Both the position numbers and the translations under genes were made by a program. A DNA stretch of 31,878 bases from a virus. The notes beneath the pieces are model-generated. The model was not told where the DNA came from and ran no database searches. It saw nothing but the letters and a program-made list of their open reading frames with translations. This document shows, one piece after another, positions 8,540 to 27,566 of this stretch (the stretch's first letter is position 1; the number at the start of each line of letters is the position of its first letter). The DNA lies in IMG/VR virus record IMGVR_UViG_3300044521_000193, positions 1-31,878 of that record. The stretch is one strand, 5' to 3'.

Positions 8540-9838
8540 TTAGCTGACGGACATTTTGATTTTCTTGATGGCCTGTGGCAGCACCACCATGCCACCGACA
8601 CGCTTCCTGGCAATAAAGCCAACCAGACCGCTCTCTGCATAGAGTTCGGAGAGGCGGGTGAGGCTCATCTGCACGCGATCAGCAATCACATACGACCGTT
8701 TAAAATCGCCAATCGCCACCGGGTACTCGTTGGCATTGTACGTGTAGTCGGGATTGGCGTCGTCCATAGCGGGCATCTCGACGTAAGGCCGGTCATAGAT
8801 GGTCGCGGGCAAACCACCAGCCGCAAACGGTTGCCAGAGCGGGCGGTTCTGCGAGTCCTTCATCAGGCGCAGATTGCCCAGTGTTGCTGTCGTAAAAATC
8901 CAGGTGGAGTTCGCCCGGTACACACTCTTGAGCGCGTGCATGCATTTGAGCAGCACATCAGGATTGAGCGTGGTGGTGCTACCTGCCGGGATGTAGCTCA
9001 CCTGGCTATTAAACATCACCCCTTCGGGTTTCTCATTCCCGTCACCCGTGATAAAGGTGCTGCCTTCCAAGTAGGCAAATTGCTCCGCCAATTCCGACTG
9101 CACAAAATCCGCAATAGGAAAGACCGAATCTTCCAGGTTCTGGAGCGAGACCTGCAGAAGCCCGCGCATCTCGTGCGGATAGATCTTGACCATGCCCAAT
9201 CGCGGATCATTCGATTGCGTATACCGCGCCTGCTCAACCGCCCAGTAGGCACTCGAGATGCCGGTACGCTTCGGGATCTCAATCCAGGCCATCGAGGTCT
9301 GGTAGACGGTCGCCAGGGCGCGGAACTGCGAGATGAGGACGATATCTTTAATCAGATCATCCACGAACTCCGGCATGGCGAAGAATCCGCCAGTCGTCGC
9401 GTCGGCGTTATACATGGTCTTGCGCTCAAGAGGCAGGTCAGAGAGTTTCACCCACTGCTTCTGCTCCGGTTTGAGCGTGTCGAGGTACGTGTCGCCTTTC
9501 GCACTGGCCTTGATGGCGGCGATGAACGAAGATTTGGCCTCATGCTTGGCGACCTGAGCTTTGACCTGCGGGCTGTCATAGCCTGCGACAATGATGCCGG
9601 GGCGCAGCGCGGCCAACTGCATGTCGCGAAAATCCTTCATCAGGCCATTTAAGTCCGCGTTCATGCGAGCCATGCCATCTTTATATTCGGCGGGCATCTG
9701 AGCCGATTGCGAGGTGAGGACATCGCCGAGGTGTTTTTGTTCTTTATCGAGCATATCCACGCGCTCATTGAGCTTATAGGTAATGCCCTTCACCTCATCC
9801 ATGATGTCACGCAGTGTGACATCGCCTGAAACTGCCAT
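8540..9838 (-). CDS. Major capsid protein, HK97 family
   Basis: 432 aa. Residues 1-110 form a helical delta-domain (coiled pattern DIMDEVKGITYKLNERVDML), normally removed by the prohead protease. The HK97 fold starts near 145 with DATTGGFFAMPEFVDDLI and continues through IEIPKRTGISSAYWAVEQ and FAYLEGSTFITGDGNEKPEG, the strongly conserved F-x-x-G-GxxxPxG motif. SD AAGGAAAG precedes ATG 9838. Neighbours are the protease/scaffold upstream and a decoration-like gene downstream. A cleavage site near residues 110-145 is expected but cannot be placed exactly. Confidence 0.96.
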   Translation of the reverse strand: MAVSGDVTLRDIMDEVKGITYKLNERVDMLDKEQKHLGDVLTSQSAQMPAEYKDGMARMNADLNGLMKDFRDMQLAALRPGIIVAGYDSPQVKAQVAKHEAKSSFIAAIKASAKGDTYLDTLKPEQKQWVKLSDLPLERKTMYNADATTGGFFAMPEFVDDLIKDIVLISQFRALATVYQTSMAWIEIPKRTGISSAYWAVEQARYTQSNDPRLGMVKIYPHEMRGLLQVSLQNLEDSVFPIADFVQSELAEQFAYLEGSTFITGDGNEKPEGVMFNSQVSYIPAGSTTTLNPDVLLKCMHALKSVYRANSTWIFTTATLGNLRLMKDSQNRPLWQPFAAGGLPATIYDRPYVEMPAMDDANPDYTYNANEYPVAIGDFKRSYVIADRVQMSLTRLSELYAESGLVGFIARKRVGGMVVLPQAIKKIKMSVS

Positions 9839-9858: not shown

Positions 9859-10521
9859 CTAGCGAACAGTGTTTCTGAGGTTTCCGAGTTGTGCTAGTGC
9901 CGAGCCAAGATCGAGATCGTCAGCAGCAGTGCCTTTATGTGCAGGCGGGTGCTGGACATGGCGACCAGGTGCGCCTCTTGTTGTGCGCGAGCTGGTCGAT
10001 TTGCCGTCCTGGGTGGCGTCATCCGGGTTACCATCCGGGTCTACATAGGTAGTTGCGCCCGTATTCTGGGCGAGATCATCGGCCATGGCGGATATCTGGT
10101 CAGAGACATCGTAGAGACCTGCGATGTGCTGACCGAGCGTCTGTAAGTCGGCTTGTGAATTGCGTGCGCCGACTTTGCGACTGTGCTGCCTGGGATTGGA
10201 CATCATGTCGTATGCGTCGGGGTCACTTTGTTGCAATTCCTGGAGATAGTTCGAGTAATCCAGGTCTACTCCCTCTTGCACCCAGGCAAGAAACTGTTGA
10301 ATAAAACCAGGCGAATTATCGTTGCCATTGAGGGCATCCTGGCAGTCTTGGAGAGGCTCGTCGCCCATGGTAAAGGCATCTTGCACCGTCTTTTGCAATG
10401 AGAAGGACAGCGAATACCATTTGTTGCGCCAATCCGCAATTTGTTGGACGCGGAAGTTGTCGTTGAAATCTTTCCGAGCAGGGGCGGCCTGCTGTTGCTT
10501 GCCTGGTATTCTGTTCGGCAT
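9859..10521 (-). CDS. Internal start: scaffold-like protein
   Basis: ATG at 10521 (MPNRIPGKQ) is preceded by a perfect AAGGAGG at 10531-10537 with 9-nt spacing, one of the better ribosome sites of the head operon although it is inside an open frame. The 220-aa product is helical, Gln/Asp-rich and low in complexity towards the end (GNPDDATQDGKSTSSRTTRG), as capsid scaffolds often are. It would assemble the prohead with the protease as its minor N-terminally extended form. Confidence 0.65.
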   Translation of the reverse strand: MPNRIPGKQQQAAPARKDFNDNFRVQQIADWRNKWYSLSFSLQKTVQDAFTMGDEPLQDCQDALNGNDNSPGFIQQFLAWVQEGVDLDYSNYLQELQQSDPDAYDMMSNPRQHSRKVGARNSQADLQTLGQHIAGLYDVSDQISAMADDLAQNTGATTYVDPDGNPDDATQDGKSTSSRTTRGAPGRHVQHPPAHKGTAADDLDLGSALAQLGNLRNTVR

Positions 10522-10830
10522 AGAGAAATTCCTCCTTGTGGCACCGGCGTGACTTTTGCTGTCTCCACTCATTCCAGACATGCTGTCCGATGGCTTTTCG
10601 TTGTACCAATCCGCAAGCCATGTGGTCATTTCGTCGATTTCTTTCGTTTGAGCACTGATGATATCTGAGGCTAGCGTTTTGAGATCGGCCTGCTTGGCGC
10701 GATCCGGAGCAAGTTCTGACATCGCAATCGCGGCCTGATGATGCTGGATCATGAGTTGCATAAACAAGATATCAAATTTCTGGCCGGAGAGGGGCTCCAA
10801 CTGCCCTGCCATGCTGGTCATGTCAGCCAT
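9859..10830 (-). CDS. Internal start: DUF305-scaffold product
   Basis: ATG at 10830 (MADMTSMAG) lies in frame inside the protease gene. It follows AAAAGGGGGTGACACG, an SD-like G-run 7 nt upstream. Initiation here would give a 323-aa protein with DUF305 at its N-terminus and the scaffold-like region behind. Overlapping protease/scaffold genes with a nested scaffold start are established for lambda (C/Nu3). That this start is used is inference from the ribosome site. Confidence 0.5.
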   Translation of the reverse strand: MADMTSMAGQLEPLSGQKFDILFMQLMIQHHQAAIAMSELAPDRAKQADLKTLASDIISAQTKEIDEMTTWLADWYNEKPSDSMSGMSGDSKSHAGATRRNFSMPNRIPGKQQQAAPARKDFNDNFRVQQIADWRNKWYSLSFSLQKTVQDAFTMGDEPLQDCQDALNGNDNSPGFIQQFLAWVQEGVDLDYSNYLQELQQSDPDAYDMMSNPRQHSRKVGARNSQADLQTLGQHIAGLYDVSDQISAMADDLAQNTGATTYVDPDGNPDDATQDGKSTSSRTTRGAPGRHVQHPPAHKGTAADDLDLGSALAQLGNLRNTVR

Positions 10831-11445
10831 CGTGTCACCCCCTTTTCGTCCATCTGGCATTCTGTTAGGTATATAAAAATTCCTTGGCTGTTGTCGGGAT
10901 TTGACCACCTCAATGGCAGCCAAATCATTCATGGGAAACACCACCGCTGATCCTTCCACAATCTCAATCTCCAACAGGTTGCGTACCATCTGGCCACCCT
11001 CTTTGACCCACTCATACTGGTGGGGAATATAGCCCATCGACTGTTTACGCAGTGTCCCCAGCTTCATGCTGGAATAGAGATCACGACCCATCTGCATATC
11101 CAGGTTGAGTTGTGTCTTCGTGAAGAGACCTGGCCGTTTCCCTCCTCCAGCTTTCACTTCATCGGCATCGAAAATGCCACCCGGAGGGATAATGTTGTAG
11201 TCGTGATTCCAGAGATAAGGCCAGAGGAAGTCATAGCCGTTAGCTGTTTTACGTGCATAGGAGAGATCGAGCGTGCGCTTAAAGGCATTCGGCATGGAGC
11301 GGTCGCCGCCGTCATCGATATTGCTCACCACGTTAAGGTATCCTTCAATGATGCCTTTCTGGTCATTTGTGGCCTTGATATCGGTGAGAATAACCTTGTA
11401 CTCTTTCACCTTTGATTGCACGATTCCCCTGCTCTTTGGCACCAT
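9859..11445 (-). CDS. HK97 prohead protease fused to DUF305 and a scaffold-like C-terminus
   Basis: About 528 aa from ATG 11445 (the upstream frame is open; a GTG at about 11421 with AGGGG before it is another possible start). Part 1 (1-190) is a U35-type prohead protease: GIIEGYLNVVSNIDDGGDR, catalytic-type His in LWNHDY (about 81), Ser in RKQSMGY (about 136) and the following acidic strand EIEIVEGSAVVF. Part 2 (about 217-283) is a DUF305 domain: LSGQKFDILFMQLMIQHHQA, AAIAMSELA, then DLKTLASDIISAQTKEIDEM and TWLADWY. Part 3 is Gln/Asp-rich, helical and scaffold-like. DUF305 proteins are usually small, often exported, metal-handling proteins. I know of no standard protease-DUF305 fusion. Internal starts at 10830 and 10521 are listed separately. 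Confidence 0.88.
   Translation of the reverse strand: MVPKSRGIVQSKVKEYKVILTDIKATNDQKGIIEGYLNVVSNIDDGGDRSMPNAFKRTLDLSYARKTANGYDFLWPYLWNHDYNIIPPGGIFDADEVKAGGGKRPGLFTKTQLNLDMQMGRDLYSSMKLGTLRKQSMGYIPHQYEWVKEGGQMVRNLLEIEIVEGSAVVFPMNDLAAIEVVKSRQQPRNFYIPNRMPDGRKGGDTMADMTSMAGQLEPLSGQKFDILFMQLMIQHHQAAIAMSELAPDRAKQADLKTLASDIISAQTKEIDEMTTWLADWYNEKPSDSMSGMSGDSKSHAGATRRNFSMPNRIPGKQQQAAPARKDFNDNFRVQQIADWRNKWYSLSFSLQKTVQDAFTMGDEPLQDCQDALNGNDNSPGFIQQFLAWVQEGVDLDYSNYLQELQQSDPDAYDMMSNPRQHSRKVGARNSQADLQTLGQHIAGLYDVSDQISAMADDLAQNTGATTYVDPDGNPDDATQDGKSTSSRTTRGAPGRHVQHPPAHKGTAADDLDLGSALAQLGNLRNTVR
10504..10533 (-). repeat. Direct repeat copy 2 flanking the DUF305 segment
   Basis: A 30-bp sequence that matches 10855-10884 at 25 of 30 positions in the same orientation, 351 bp away (117 codons, in frame). 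It encodes the RNF..PNR.PG motif and, in this copy, carries the internal ATG and part of the SD. Confidence 0.8.
10855..10884 (-). repeat. Direct repeat copy 1 flanking the DUF305 segment
   Basis: Partner of 10504-10533. It encodes RNFYIPNRMP at the end of the protease domain. The two copies bracket the DUF305 coding segment exactly, as if the segment entered by a duplication at the protease-scaffold junction. Confidence 0.8.
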
Positions 11446-11465
11446 CAGGCCATTCGGCGTCCTTC

Positions 11466-11630
11466 TCACTGCACACCTCCTAGGCAATCAATGACAAACG
11501 GGCCTTGAACGCCATCACAAAACGCTTCTGCCGCCTGTAAGGCTAATTCAATGCGCTTACATGGGGTGACAGCACTATCGCCGCCCATGTACACGATGTC
11601 ATTTTCAACGAGTCCTGCAATGCATGTCAT
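11466..11630 (-). CDS. Very short Ntn-hydrolase (proteasome-like) ORF, probably internally deleted
   Basis: A 54-aa ORF in ATGA overlap with the portal gene. It begins MTCIAGLVENDIVYMGGDSA, the typical first strand pair of proteasome-subunit-like Ntn hydrolases (nucleophile Thr2 after Met removal, and the GGDSA turn). It then jumps to RIELALQAAEAFCDGVQGPF, which looks like the family's C-terminal helix and strand. Full-length relatives are about 180-220 aa, so roughly 130 residues of the core seem missing. It is either a remnant still carried in frame or a minimal derivative. It could be a source of peptide processing in the head module if a full copy exists elsewhere. Confidence 0.65.
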   Translation of the reverse strand: MTCIAGLVENDIVYMGGDSAVTPCKRIELALQAAEAFCDGVQGPFVIDCLGGVQ

Positions 11631-14527
11631 GCGCTTCGCTCTCCTCCTCCAAAACCTTGTAAATACGTGCGATAGGTGCTGCGCTCTGGCCGACCGGTGA
11701 CGATCAGCGGGTGCCGTTTTTGCATATCCGGGCTGTCGATCTCTTCGCCGTCAGTCTCATTACCGGCGGTATCCACACGCCGGTAAAATTCAGTGCAGCG
11801 GCAATACACAATCTCACTGCCGGGTGCGCCCATCGATGAATCGCCAGGAAACATCATCTGTGCGCCACCGACATCGAACGGATCCTCAATCGGCACCTCC
11901 TGACCGTCGGCTGCTGCGTGTGTTGGCCGGGTGTGATTGTCTTCTGTGGCAAGCCAGACTTTGTTGAGGGTGAGTCCCGATTGGAGCGCGGCCTGCTGAC
12001 TGCCATAGTTGGAGGCAGCAACCACTTCGGTCGCCACAATGCGCTGGATGCGCTCTGGTGTCTGAATAACATAGAGGTTATCAACGCGCTTCACGAGCTG
12101 TGGAATAGACTCACCGGCAGCAACACCTTCTTCTAAGGCCGATTGCAGAAGAGCGAGTGTATAGGCGTTGATATTCGTCACCTTTTCACCAGCCATCGTG
12201 AGCAAATAGACCAGCACATCTGCGTTGGCAAAGTCGAGGCCCGGATTCTGCTGCTGGTCCTGGTTCTGCTGGTCATCCTTGCGCTGATAGAAGCCTGCTA
12301 CCTGCGCCTTCAAACTTTTCGCGACGCGGAAAGCGGTGGCACCCCCAACATCCTGATAGAGTTGCACCAGGATATCTTTGAGATGGGAAGCCTGTTGATT
12401 GAGTGCTGATTCGACACGTAGGGCAGCCGTCTGTGGCAAGGCTGCTTGATCCACAGCGGCCACGACCGCTGCTCGCTCCTGATCCATGTAGGCTTTGAGA
12501 CGGCTGGTGATGATAGCTTCCCATCGTTTACGCTGCAACTCGACAGTCGTGAGGTAGGCCGCTTTTGCCTCAGCAGTGTCAAGATCCAGGGCCTTGGTGG
12601 CAGTCCTTCGTCCATGTCGCCGCTTCTCACCACTATCCAGGGCATAGGCATAGCGATCATCGCCGACGGCAAGTGTCAGTTCGTCAAATGAGAGGTTCAA
12701 GGCTTTGACCGATTTCAACGGCATGGGCTTGGCGGCATCCACATAGGCCAGGGTGATGTGCGGTGTAAAGCCATGCGTGGTATCAGGCGTAAAGTCGGCA
12801 CTACGCAACGCCTCAACCAACGCCTCGCGGAAAGCAGGTAGCCCTGCGGCATCGACGGAGGCGTATACTGGCGTGGGTTCGCCAGCATCCACCGTAGTGA
12901 AGCGACCAAGGCCCGATAGAGCACCGGTGAAATACTGCTGACTTGACGCAAAGCTTGATACGACGCGCTTGAGTGCAGTAATATCACTGGGACTAAAATC
13001 GCTTTTCTCGCCAAGATAGGCCAGCGTCACGTGTAAATCGCTGGCGAGTTCACCACCAGGCACTGCTAGCAATTTGGCGTTGTCGGAATCAAGGAAGAAG
13101 GCGACCATTACACCGGTATGGTCCTGCTGGTCTTCGTCATCCTCGCTCTCAATTTCAGCCTGTTTGCGACTGCGCTTGGCAGGTGTGGAAGCTGGTAATG
13201 CTGGTGGAACTGGTGGCTGGTCCAGGATGTTTTCAGGTACCAGTGCAGGTGCAGCAGCCGGTTTTTGCAAACTCTGATCGGCGTAGTCGAGCAGCTTCTC
13301 TGTACGTACCAGCACAGTTCCCATGCGGAACACCCCACCCGCACCACCTGGCACCGGCGGCAAGCCATCAATGGCTCGTGCCTCGTCGAGCGTGCATTTC
13401 CCGGCCAGGTAGATTTTATTGGAGCGGTCGGACTTTTGCGCGAGCTGCTCTTGCAAGAATTTTTGGATGGCTGGCACCGACTCCGGTTTGTAAGCAAGAT
13501 AGAGGCCGCTTTTTCCGTTGGCGTACTTTGGCACAAGCCATCGGTTGGCGGTCGCCTCCAACTTGTCCAATATCATTGGAAAGACGGCTTCAAAATAACT
13601 GGCGAGTTTCGCCGAGTCCATGTTGTTAAAAGTGGATGCGCTGGTATCGCCGATCAACATCGGCGCGATGTTATAAATGTTGGCGATGTCACTGGCGTTG
13701 CGCATACGGGAACTGAGCCAGTCGAGTTCTGCCGGTGTGATGCTCATGGATTGCCATTTGAGACCGCCATAGAGAACTGGGGGACGTCCGGCGTTGCGCA
13801 CTCCCTGATATTTTTTTTGCAGATCGTCCTTCATCGAGGTGTAGGCAGTCTCGGTTAGCATCTGGTCCGTCACCCAGGCTCCCGGGGGGCGTGCACTGTT
13901 CTGCATAAGAGCCAGATTCCACTTATTTCCGCTGGTCTGCATATCCACCAGGATTGCGGCTACTTCTATCGGTGAGAGGCCGCGCAATGCATCATCGGGA
14001 CACCAGTACTTGGTCTGGGCCACCTGCATTTTATCCATCAATTGCTTTTCGGAGGCTGTACTGCCATAGCGATAGCCGATGATGCCCGTCTGATTCGGAA
14101 TAACTTCCACCCAGTCTGGGCGTAGCACATAGATTTCATCGGGTGGTGTTTTAAAATTATTGTTCAGATTGACAGCTTGCATAAAGCTGTTGCCACCAAG
14201 CAGCAGGCAGCCTGCCCAATCCTCAACGAATTCAGGCAGATATTGCTCAGGATTTGGGCTATACCAGCGATCCAGGAGCGGATGAACTTCGATCTCTTCG
14301 CGCTTAAAGCGGTCAGCGTAGAGGCCCCAGTCCACTGCGGCCGCGTTGCGGGCAAGATAGTTAATGCACTTGTAGACCGTGTCGTTGGTGCGGAAGCCTT
14401 CCTTCGCGTATGTCGGATAATTCCGCGCCATCTGCTGGGGCTGGTCAGTTCCGGCCATTACCACAGTCGCGGCGTACACCGGATTGATCTTCTGCTCAAT
14501 GTGCGCATGGCTCTGCTTATTATTCAT
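11627..14527 (-). CDS. Portal protein fused to a 2H phosphoesterase domain and a Mu-F-like domain
   Basis: 966 aa. Residues 1-430 are an HK97-type portal (VYKCINYLARNAAAVDWGLY, PEFVEDWAGCLLLGGNSFM, NIAPMLIGDTSASTFNNMDS). After a Pro-rich linker (about 430-470), residues 474-640 form a 2H phosphoesterase: HVTLAYLG with H499/T501 and HITLAYVD with H589/T591, the paired HxT catalytic signature. Residues about 640-790 are helical with a Gln-rich stretch. Residues about 790-925 are Mu gpF-like (RIQRIVATEVVAASNYGSQQ, then DNHTRPTHAAADGQEVP and YCRCTEFY). MuF domains sit in the virion and are often fused to effectors. 2H enzymes cut cyclic or 2',3'-phosphates; phage Acb1 (anti-CBASS) belongs to that superfamily. 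Whether this one degrades defence nucleotides is inference. The start overlaps the terL stop by one base. Confidence 0.93.
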   Translation of the reverse strand: MNNKQSHAHIEQKINPVYAATVVMAGTDQPQQMARNYPTYAKEGFRTNDTVYKCINYLARNAAAVDWGLYADRFKREEIEVHPLLDRWYSPNPEQYLPEFVEDWAGCLLLGGNSFMQAVNLNNNFKTPPDEIYVLRPDWVEVIPNQTGIIGYRYGSTASEKQLMDKMQVAQTKYWCPDDALRGLSPIEVAAILVDMQTSGNKWNLALMQNSARPPGAWVTDQMLTETAYTSMKDDLQKKYQGVRNAGRPPVLYGGLKWQSMSITPAELDWLSSRMRNASDIANIYNIAPMLIGDTSASTFNNMDSAKLASYFEAVFPMILDKLEATANRWLVPKYANGKSGLYLAYKPESVPAIQKFLQEQLAQKSDRSNKIYLAGKCTLDEARAIDGLPPVPGGAGGVFRMGTVLVRTEKLLDYADQSLQKPAAAPALVPENILDQPPVPPALPASTPAKRSRKQAEIESEDDEDQQDHTGVMVAFFLDSDNAKLLAVPGGELASDLHVTLAYLGEKSDFSPSDITALKRVVSSFASSQQYFTGALSGLGRFTTVDAGEPTPVYASVDAAGLPAFREALVEALRSADFTPDTTHGFTPHITLAYVDAAKPMPLKSVKALNLSFDELTLAVGDDRYAYALDSGEKRRHGRRTATKALDLDTAEAKAAYLTTVELQRKRWEAIITSRLKAYMDQERAAVVAAVDQAALPQTAALRVESALNQQASHLKDILVQLYQDVGGATAFRVAKSLKAQVAGFYQRKDDQQNQDQQQNPGLDFANADVLVYLLTMAGEKVTNINAYTLALLQSALEEGVAAGESIPQLVKRVDNLYVIQTPERIQRIVATEVVAASNYGSQQAALQSGLTLNKVWLATEDNHTRPTHAAADGQEVPIEDPFDVGGAQMMFPGDSSMGAPGSEIVYCRCTEFYRRVDTAGNETDGEEIDSPDMQKRHPLIVTGRPERSTYRTYLQGFGGGERSA

Positions 14528-21998: not shown

Positions 21999-22312
21999 CG
22001 CGGCTGTCCCTCCTCCATCTGTATCGGATTTGGGCGGAGTTCCACCTTGCCACACAAAAGTTCACGCTCAAGCACTGTGCCAAGAGCCTGACTGAACTGG
22101 ATGGAGAGGTCAACTGCTCGTGCTTGCACATGCGCGTCAATCTCCGGGTAGGCTTTGTCGTAAGGCCCGGTTAAGCCCACTAAGAGTTGCTGGACAATTG
22201 GCTCCATCCGCACCTCAATACTACGAATATAGGCCCGTTTGGCGGCAGCCAGGCGAACTTCGCGGTCTTGCTCAATCAGCTTTTCTACTTCTGTCAAAAT
22301 GTCATTTATCAC
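21995..22312 (-). CDS. Helical protein (105 aa)
   Basis: Starts inside the end of the sigma gene (11-nt overlap). Helical throughout ([40 protein letters not shown]), so probably a coiled-coil oligomer. No family recognised. Cotranslated with the sigma factor, making it a candidate partner or anti-sigma, which is speculation. Confidence 0.75.
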
Positions 22313-23234
22313 CGCCGACCTCCATCAATTCTGGACAGCCCGTCCGCAATGTGCGCAATGCTTTCCCCTCCAACTGACGTACACGCTCTTTCGTCAAATC
22401 AACCACCTGGCCAATATCATGCTGAGTAGCACACATTCCATCACGCAGGCCGTAGCGCATTTCCAGAATAGTACGCTCACGCACCGATAGATGTTCGGCA
22501 AGAGCCACCTGGACCTGCTTCGCTCGCATGGCATCGTGTGTCTGGTCATCAGGCAACGCTTGCATCACGTCTTCCAGATACTCGGCCAGACAGGAATACT
22601 CATCGCCGGTGTGATTACCGAGCGGTGCATCTAGCGAAAGTGGCTGCTCAGCCAGATCGAGGAGAGCTTGCACCTGTGCAAGCGGAAGATCCGCACGCCT
22701 GGCAAGTTCAAGTTGCGACGGCTCGCAGCCATACTCCTGGAACAGATGTGTTTCCAGCCGCTTGAGACGGTTGACCGCCTCAACAACATGCACCGGAATA
22801 GACAGCATGTGATTCTCAGCGAGAGCGCGGCTGATGGCCTGACGAATCCACCAGACCGCATAGGTACTAAAGCGGTAGCTGCGTTCTGGATCGAATTTTT
22901 CTACTGCCCGAATCAGGCCACCATTACCCTCTTGAATGAGATCAAAAAGTGGCAGACCGCGACCAATGGAGCGTTTGGCGATGGAGACCACCAGGCGCAA
23001 GTTAGCCTCGATCATCTGCTGACGTGCAGCATGTTCACCTCTTCTACTTCGTCGCCCTAGCATTATTTCCTGTTCGTGTGTTAACAAGGGTATCTGGCCG
23101 ATGTCATGCAGATAGCATTTGAGGGCTTCATCGTGCGTGTGATTACTATCAACAGCTTCCTGATCCAGCATGTCACCCTCCAGGACATCCCGCTCCACAT
23201 CTTCAACAACAACTCTCTCCTTGCGCCGCCTCAT
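22302..23234 (-). CDS. Phage-encoded sigma-70 factor (primary-like)
   Basis: 310 aa. Region 1.2 at about 35-62 ([20 protein letters not shown]), regions 2.1-2.4 at 70-140 ([53 protein letters not shown]), region 3 at 150-205 and region 4 at 240-298, with the -35-reading helix-turn-helix ([20 protein letters not shown]). All core-binding and promoter-melting parts are present; region 1.1 is absent. It redirects host RNA polymerase to promoters, perhaps the TATACT type seen around 17-19.5 kb. ATGA-coupled to the 80-aa gene upstream. Confidence 0.95.
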
Positions 23235-26534: not shown

Positions 26535-27566
26535 CTATGCTTCTTGCAGAGGGGCATAAGCACCCATCTCTAATCCAAATGTCCAGGCCACGGCCTCATC
26601 CGCGTTCGCAATCGCTGGTGGCACACGCAGATAGTACTCGCGAGCTGTAGACGTATCGCACACATGGACGTAGCGTGCCACGCGCTCCGGGTCGGGGCGA
26701 ATATCGATCTCGTAGAGTTCACCGTAGCAGCCGACGTTGATACACCGACCCCCGATCACCTGCACAAAATCAGACATGCGCTCCTGGATGACGCGGCGCA
26801 CCTCCATGTTCTCTTCGTGCAGCCAATCATCTTTCGTGAGCGTGTCAGGCTGGAGGATAAGCCTTTCAGGGATACGCACCCCGTGCCAAGCATAGAAGCC
26901 CCATCCATCGCGATAGGCTAGGCACTTGCCAGAGACCGAGTGGAGCCGCCCTTGCTCGTCACGCGCCAGGATGGTTGGTTTGCGCACCAGCCAGGCTTCC
27001 GTATGTCCGAGTCGGTAGCCCGACACCATCTCGTTGAAAAGCGCGAGATGGATGAGGTCGTTTTCCTCAAAGACTTCGTGGAAGAAACGGTAGAAGGCCA
27101 GCCAGTTCTCATCGTAGTAGGCCCTCACGCTGTCCCCCACGCTGTCCCACACGCTGGCCCTCACGCTGGCCCACACGCTGGCCCCCACGCTGTCCCCCAC
27201 GCTGTCCCACACGCTGGCCCTCACGCTGGCCCACACGCTGGCCCCCACGCTGTCCCACACGCTGGCCCTCACGCTGGCCCACACGCTGGCCCCCACGCTG
27301 TCCCACACGCTGGCCCCGCCCCCGAAATGCGCCATGACAAACGCAATGGGTGAATCGAACCACCGAATCGCCGCCGGTGGCACGAGCCCCGCGACGTGAT
27401 AGGCATCGCGCAGGTGCTGCTCCGCCGCCTGTTCGTCAATGGCAGTAGTGGCGAACAGTGCGGCAATGCGCTCCTGCGCAAACTGCCGTGCATAGGCTTG
27501 CTGCTCCGGAAGCAGTTTCTCCTGGCCGCGCATCAAGCGCGGCCAGGCAGGTAGAATCGATACCAT
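26535..27566 (-). CDS. DUF6745-like protein with SVxx tetrapeptide repeats
   Basis: 343 aa. The N-terminal part (residues 1-80) includes PAWPRLMRGQEKLLPEQQAY and AAIRWFDSPIAFVMAH, which I associate with DUF6745-type proteins. Residues 86-149 are sixteen four-residue repeats (SVWD, SVGA, SVWA, SVRA, SVGD). The C-terminal 190 residues follow YYDENWLAFYRFFHEV and include RDGWGFYAWHGVRIPERLIL and GGRCINVGCYGELYEID. Such repeats are usual in that family. Role unknown. ATGA-coupled to the 102-aa gene upstream. Confidence 0.8.
   Translation of the reverse strand: MVSILPAWPRLMRGQEKLLPEQQAYARQFAQERIAALFATTAIDEQAAEQHLRDAYHVAGLVPPAAIRWFDSPIAFVMAHFGGGASVWDSVGASVWASVRASVWDSVGASVWASVRASVWDSVGDSVGASVWASVRASVWDSVGDSVRAYYDENWLAFYRFFHEVFEENDLIHLALFNEMVSGYRLGHTEAWLVRKPTILARDEQGRLHSVSGKCLAYRDGWGFYAWHGVRIPERLILQPDTLTKDDWLHEENMEVRRVIQERMSDFVQVIGGRCINVGCYGELYEIDIRPDPERVARYVHVCDTSTAREYYLRVPPAIANADEAVAWTFGLEMGAYAPLQEA
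27120..27311 (-). repeat. 16 x 12-bp coding minisatellite (SVxx repeats)
   Basis: Exactly 192 bp of 12-base units AGCGTGnGGGnC-type. Higher order: SVWD-SVGA-SVWA-SVRA twice (48 bp), then a 60-bp variant with an added SVGD, then SVWD-SVGD-SVRA. Near-identical long units indicate recent slippage or unequal exchange. Confidence 0.92.

Follow-up and report, generated by a model that had tools for sequence, protein, structure and literature searches.

The protease gene and its domains

The window, by which we mean the whole 31,878-nt stretch of DNA that was analysed, an IMG/VR virus record, carries a minus-strand head module encoding terminase subunits, a portal, a protease, an HK97-type capsid protein, head-tail adaptors and tail proteins (Table 1). 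The portal, protease and capsid genes are present in that order, as for a caudovirus prohead protease (S78). The open reading frame list begins the protease gene at TTG 11487 (ORF 9859-11487, minus strand); its likeliest start is GTG 11469, which has an AGGAGG 6 nt upstream. We note a second insertion in the head proteins of the same phage, the 2H part (2'-5' RNA ligase-like) at about 12605-13120 (minus strand); in the relative L185 the portal and MuF parts are present but no 2H-phosphoesterase. Elsewhere in the window are an array of 16 copies of a 12-nt repeat with a 48-nt higher order (27120-27316), inside a DUF6745-containing ORF (26535-27566), and a gene of the phage for a sigma-70 factor that comprises regions 1.2, 2, 3 and 4 (22302-23234, minus strand).

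Table 1. Features of the protease gene and its neighbours in the window.
Feature	Coordinates	Strand	Remarks
Portal / 2H-phosphoesterase / MuF fusion protein	11627..14527	-	966 aa; profile matches
DUF305-containing head maturation protease gene	9859..11469	-	536 aa from GTG; profile matches
Peptidase_S78 (HK97-type prohead protease) domain	10894..11373	-	Pfam E 7.6e-17, PHROG 80 E 4.4e-28
Repeat copy 1, upstream linker	10854..10884	-	peptide RNFYIPNRMP
Segment between repeats (inserted piece)	10534..10853	-	DUF305 and Met/Ser-rich tail; absent from L211, L216, L182-L185
DUF305 helical hairpin	10600..10821	-	M-x2-HH-x5-M signature; Pfam E 1.8e-26; HH codons 10738-10743
Repeat copy 2, downstream linker	10503..10533	-	peptide RNFSMPNRIP
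Helical C-terminal "KDFN" domain	9862..10473	-	common to relatives without DUF305
HK97-type major capsid protein	8540..9838	-	PHROG 10 E 9.7e-58

The S78 protease domain is modelled confidently by AF2 (pLDDT about 85-98 across most of residues 31-180), and its His89 and Ser144 are invariant in a 26-row alignment. A preliminary description of this DNA had placed a DUF305 domain inside the protease gene, and profile searches bear this out: the whole protein scores 93.5 bits against PF03713, for which the curated cut-off is 27 (E 1.8e-26), and the DUF305 segment alone gives E 1.1e-28. The domain is one two-helix hairpin, its best match covering positions 1-77 of the 151 in PF03713 rather than the full model. 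Its closest solved relatives are the CopM chains (5fej; E 1.2e-23); the window protein has no signal sequence, and its single hairpin lies inside a phage protease. AF2 models the hairpin (residues 217-290) with confidence, the helices spanning 229-251 and 261-290 at pLDDT about 90-96, and gives the linkers around it, in which both repeat peptides lie, pLDDT below 50. The C-terminal KDFN domain is modelled with low to moderate confidence; it is helical, has no confident Pfam or PHROG match and has no match in the phages collection. Scaffold is at most a tentative label for it: the capsid protein itself brings an N-terminal extension, about 130 aa long. Such an extension is typical of HK97-type capsid proteins.

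Relatives with an empty site

Genomes and viral contigs from the window's phage group include protease relatives that are free of DUF305. In L155/L185, L157/L183, L182, L184, L209, L211, L214, L216, L217 and L221, the S78 domain runs straight into the homologous C-terminal domain across a short linker. In L211, which shares with the window 62% identity in the protease and 47% over 124 aa in the C-terminal domain, the junction contains the repeat peptide once, VVKSTLGKRSFYMPKNMPQRAKDFN (sequence across the protease/C-terminal junction, VVKSTLGKRSFYMPKNMPQRAKDFNDRY), and the repeat DNA of L211 matches the two window copies at 22/31 and 21/31 positions. L211 thereby supplies the empty site that the preliminary description had put forward as a check on insertion. 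The window's in-frame direct repeats, 351 nt apart and bracketing DUF305, had been recognised earlier; they measure 31 nt, with 26 of the 31 positions identical and a peptide consensus of RNF[YS][IM]PNR[MI]P. Among 200 codon shuffles of the protease gene, the best pair of 31-mers reached 24/31 once and otherwise at most 22, so the observed repeat exceeds chance. A simple pattern search found no peptide like RNFxxPNRxP in the capsid protein or the other main window proteins. In the protease tree the window falls within a clade supported at 98/97, all other members of which lack DUF305; an exact-peptide search with the whole window protein found no viral relative. Comparison with these relatives shows that the DUF305 hairpin was inserted at the flexible junction between the S78 and C-terminal domains, with duplication of the linker peptide; the duplication-linked gain suggested in the preliminary description is thus supported by L211, with its one repeat copy, and by the other DUF305-free relatives.

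In L210, L213, L219 and L220 this junction is occupied by another insert, about 115 aa long, with no Pfam or PHROG match. We note that this insert has the pattern SWPLAERxxxWDxxxARxxI..., and that relatives of it occur in the head maturation protease of a Thermus phage and in the portal protein of a Streptomyces phage. The proteases of L219 and L221 are nearly identical up to the junction and divergent from it onward. Together with the different inserts, this contrast marks the junction as a site of module exchange; since it accepts an unrelated insert, the site may simply tolerate additions. The empty-site relatives provide a clean example of head proteases gaining domains at one junction.

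Nearest cellular relatives of the DUF305 domain

The closest cellular counterparts of the window's DUF305 occur in secreted Chloroflexota proteins that have two domains, of which they form the first. The window domain is 58% identical to a secreted protein of Chloroflexi bacterium 54-19, and 54-57% identical to those in three Chloroflexota genomes; the insert resembles the first repeat plus linker of the Chloroflexota proteins (inter-domain linker, WYNEKP-SDSMS versus WYNEKPLTDTMS). In the DUF305 tree, which is short and weakly resolved, the window copy sits among host-type copies, beside Chloroflexi 54-19, L197 and L129 (90% SH-aLRT for its neighbour), and most other phage copies group together. 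The insert and the gene have equal GC content. Two of the three Chloroflexota genomes (G370, G394) belong to the same order as those with related prophage proteases (G309, G194), and the host of the window phage is probably a member of the Chloroflexota.

DUF305 recurs in phage head genes

Viral contigs were scanned by pattern, such that the counts are lower bounds rather than frequencies, many contigs being fragments, and neighbour classes rest on ORFs and profile matches. A scan seeded with phage and cellular DUF305s yielded at least 34 loci: S78 proteases with a C-terminal (at least 14) or an N-terminal DUF305 (at least one, L141), ClpP-type head proteases with a C-terminal DUF305 (at least four; L124, L125, L127, L128), a MuF minor head protein carrying DUF305 (at least one, L129), free-standing DUF305 genes within the head block (at least four; L126, L138, L140, L147), host-type secreted proteins (at least eight) and unclassified loci (at least two). 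A second scan was seeded with cellular sequences only, limiting seed bias; of at least 14 loci, at least eight are host-type, at least two are S78 fusions (L197, L198), at least two are free DUF305 genes between portal and protease (L195, L196) and at least two are unclassified. The ClpP-type head protease fold is unrelated to that of S78, and within the S78 protease tree the DUF305-fused state requires at least six changes. Comparable DUF305 additions arose separately in other, unrelated phages. Of 80 contigs whose capsid proteins are related, not one shows DUF305 in the stretch covered, so that it is dispensable for most phages.

Free-standing phage DUF305 proteins (L126, L195, L196, L138, L140) have Gly/Met/His-rich C-terminal tails, with GGGMSGM, GGGMNM and GGHSM, that look like extra metal ligands. 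DUF305 in the "Bacteriophage sp." fecal records H46-H48, which are unannotated, was set aside as likely bacterial contamination. We found no description of an association of DUF305 with phages, viruses or capsids in the open-licence literature, one apparent match to a DUF305-virus paper actually concerning DUF3050; phage P318 has a stand-alone DUF305 gene, and its paper draws no link to head genes. While each family is known singly, the combination of DUF305 with head genes, and its recurrence, appear undescribed.

Conservation, selection and mobility

The HH motif (MIQHHQ in the window) is present in all 146 extracted copies of the DUF305 domain, and in 15/15 head-associated and 61/61 host-type representatives. 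M246, H249, H250, A253, M256 and Q280 (542-aa numbering) are unchanged in all 15 head copies, which keep the M-HH-M signature. DUF305 in head genes is under purifying selection in four informative pairs of head copies, with dN/dS of 0.05 (L120/L122), 0.08 (L142/L149), 0.14 (L197/L198) and 0.20 (L124/L127); two further pairs, at 0.63 and 0.79, have dS below 0.1 and are hence little informative.

L127 and L128 share about 74% DNA identity overall, yet are 100% identical over about 270 nt spanning DUF305; similarly, L195 and L196 have a common 433-nt block at 95% between flanks that are about 74% identical or unrelated. These sharp-edged blocks show that DUF305 moves as a cassette. An HNH endonuclease gene adjoins DUF305 in L115 and a GIY-YIG gene adjoins the DUF305-fused protease in L124, making neighbouring homing endonucleases a possible vehicle; neither type of gene was seen beside the window protease gene. 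Separately, we note that many unfused S78 proteases have a recurring C-terminal motif, [ED]FExxLRDAGxSxxEA-like, which may be a procapsid-entry signal; C-terminal DUF305 fusions are without it, and the N-terminal fusion L141 keeps it.

Proposed role of DUF305 in the head

We propose, giving the idea about an even chance, that phages have separately gained DUF305 as a cassette encoding a predicted metal-binding hairpin dimer, an accessory that would be carried into the head. S78 proteases, ClpP-type proteases and MuF proteins share entry into the procapsid and little else. Since these non-homologous carriers all enter the procapsid, DUF305 is most likely carried there, and the wider survey makes such delivery plausible; attachment to non-homologous carriers, at either terminus, speaks against involvement in any single catalytic mechanism. 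The repeated gain of DUF305 by unrelated phages makes a function for it within the assembling head probable. The hairpin would ride into the procapsid on its carrier protein, fold as a hairpin that binds metal, probably Cu(I), and pair with another into a four-helix dimer, which could act as an accessory in the assembling or mature head, for example by keeping redox metal off the capsid proteins and DNA. Foldseek matches for a model of the L118 protein include CopM, in its Cu(I), Cu(II) and Ag forms, and the dimeric periplasmic DUF305 protein 7vw1 with cuprous ions; CopM binds Cu(I) tightly (PMC4335983). The cuprous dimer and the Cu(I) binding of CopM favour a metal-binding head accessory; the chief competing reading is that DUF305 dimerises its carrier. 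Alternatively, the conserved His, Met and Gln residues of phage DUF305 could be structural, and the free-standing DUF305 genes may act outside the capsid.

Dimerisation of the hairpin might by itself gather or anchor the protease in the procapsid, metal merely stabilising the bundle. The solved structure of a small DUF305 protein is dimeric (7vw0/7vw1), the hairpin is modelled as a confident bead on flexible linkers, and the [ED]xExxLRDxGxSxxEA-like motif is missing from C-terminal fusions and kept in the N-terminal fusion, as would fit a targeting function; nonetheless, free-standing DUF305 beside proteases (L126, L195, L196) offers no covalent tether, the window protease already has its own C-terminal domain, and the metal-type residues are retained in 15/15 copies, such that we consider this explanation rather unlikely. 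Another possibility is that DUF305 is a passenger cassette without a head function, tolerated at permissive linkers and spread by recombination, sometimes beside homing endonucleases. The sharp-edged exchange blocks, the endonuclease genes in L115 and L124 and the differing inserts at one junction could all be read in this way, but the low dN/dS of the four informative pairs, the independent arrival on non-homologous proteases and the scarcity of signal-less DUF305 genes outside head blocks, among the viral contigs sampled, make it improbable. We regard it as very improbable that the hairpin is a metal-responsive switch or pro-segment regulating the protease and freed when the protein cuts itself at the repeated linker peptides: although near-identical RNFxxPNRxP peptides flank it in linkers of low pLDDT, the simple pattern search found no similar peptide in the capsid or other main window proteins, and occurrence with two unrelated protease folds, at either terminus, leaves no common catalytic geometry. 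Returning to the accessory carried into the head, the recurrence of DUF305, a family known from copper-binding proteins that bacteria secrete, the selection on it and its intact metal signature would point to a step or cargo of capsid maturation that involves metal and is so far undescribed, for which the DUF305-bearing head genes are a concrete gene set for testing.

Comparison with known systems

In Pyrococcus furiosus, an encapsulated ferritin is fused to a shell of the HK97 fold (5n5e), which brings a metal-binding helical hairpin inside such a shell. The Foldseek match is weak (E 0.5-0.6), no sequence relation was found and it is not a protease fusion, making this an analogy only. By that analogy, and as a tentative suggestion that we doubt more than we believe, diverse tailed phages might load a hairpin that binds copper or another metal via any internal head protein (S78 protease, ClpP-type protease, MuF) or a gene beside the protease, as a viral counterpart of ferritin-loaded encapsulins, protecting the particle or its DNA or carrying a metal-binding protein to the next cell. 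A 622-aa phage protein named Dps (BFVD A0A6J5RFH1) aligned with both protease-DUF305 models and is a candidate protease-Dps fusion; no fusion turned up when phages were searched for Dps, 41 related records for ferritin families and viral contigs by scan.

CopM and other DUF305 proteins (PF03713; 5fej, 7vw1) resemble the window domain in sequence family, HH and Met signature and hairpin fold. However, CopM, a periplasmic or secreted protein, consists of two domains (PMC4335983), whereas the window protein has one domain and no signal peptide, inside a phage protease; the usual context of DUF305, secreted and often duplicated, which is outside the profile definition, is not that of the window copy. 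The HK97 gp4-type S78 protease shares with the window protein the protease domain, the conserved His and Ser and the gene position between portal and capsid; what sets the window protein apart is the DUF305 insertion and one more helical domain at its C-terminus. Lastly, the head proteases of L211, L216 and L182-L185 are homologous to that of the window in both the protease and the C-terminal domain, and differ from it in having no DUF305 between them.
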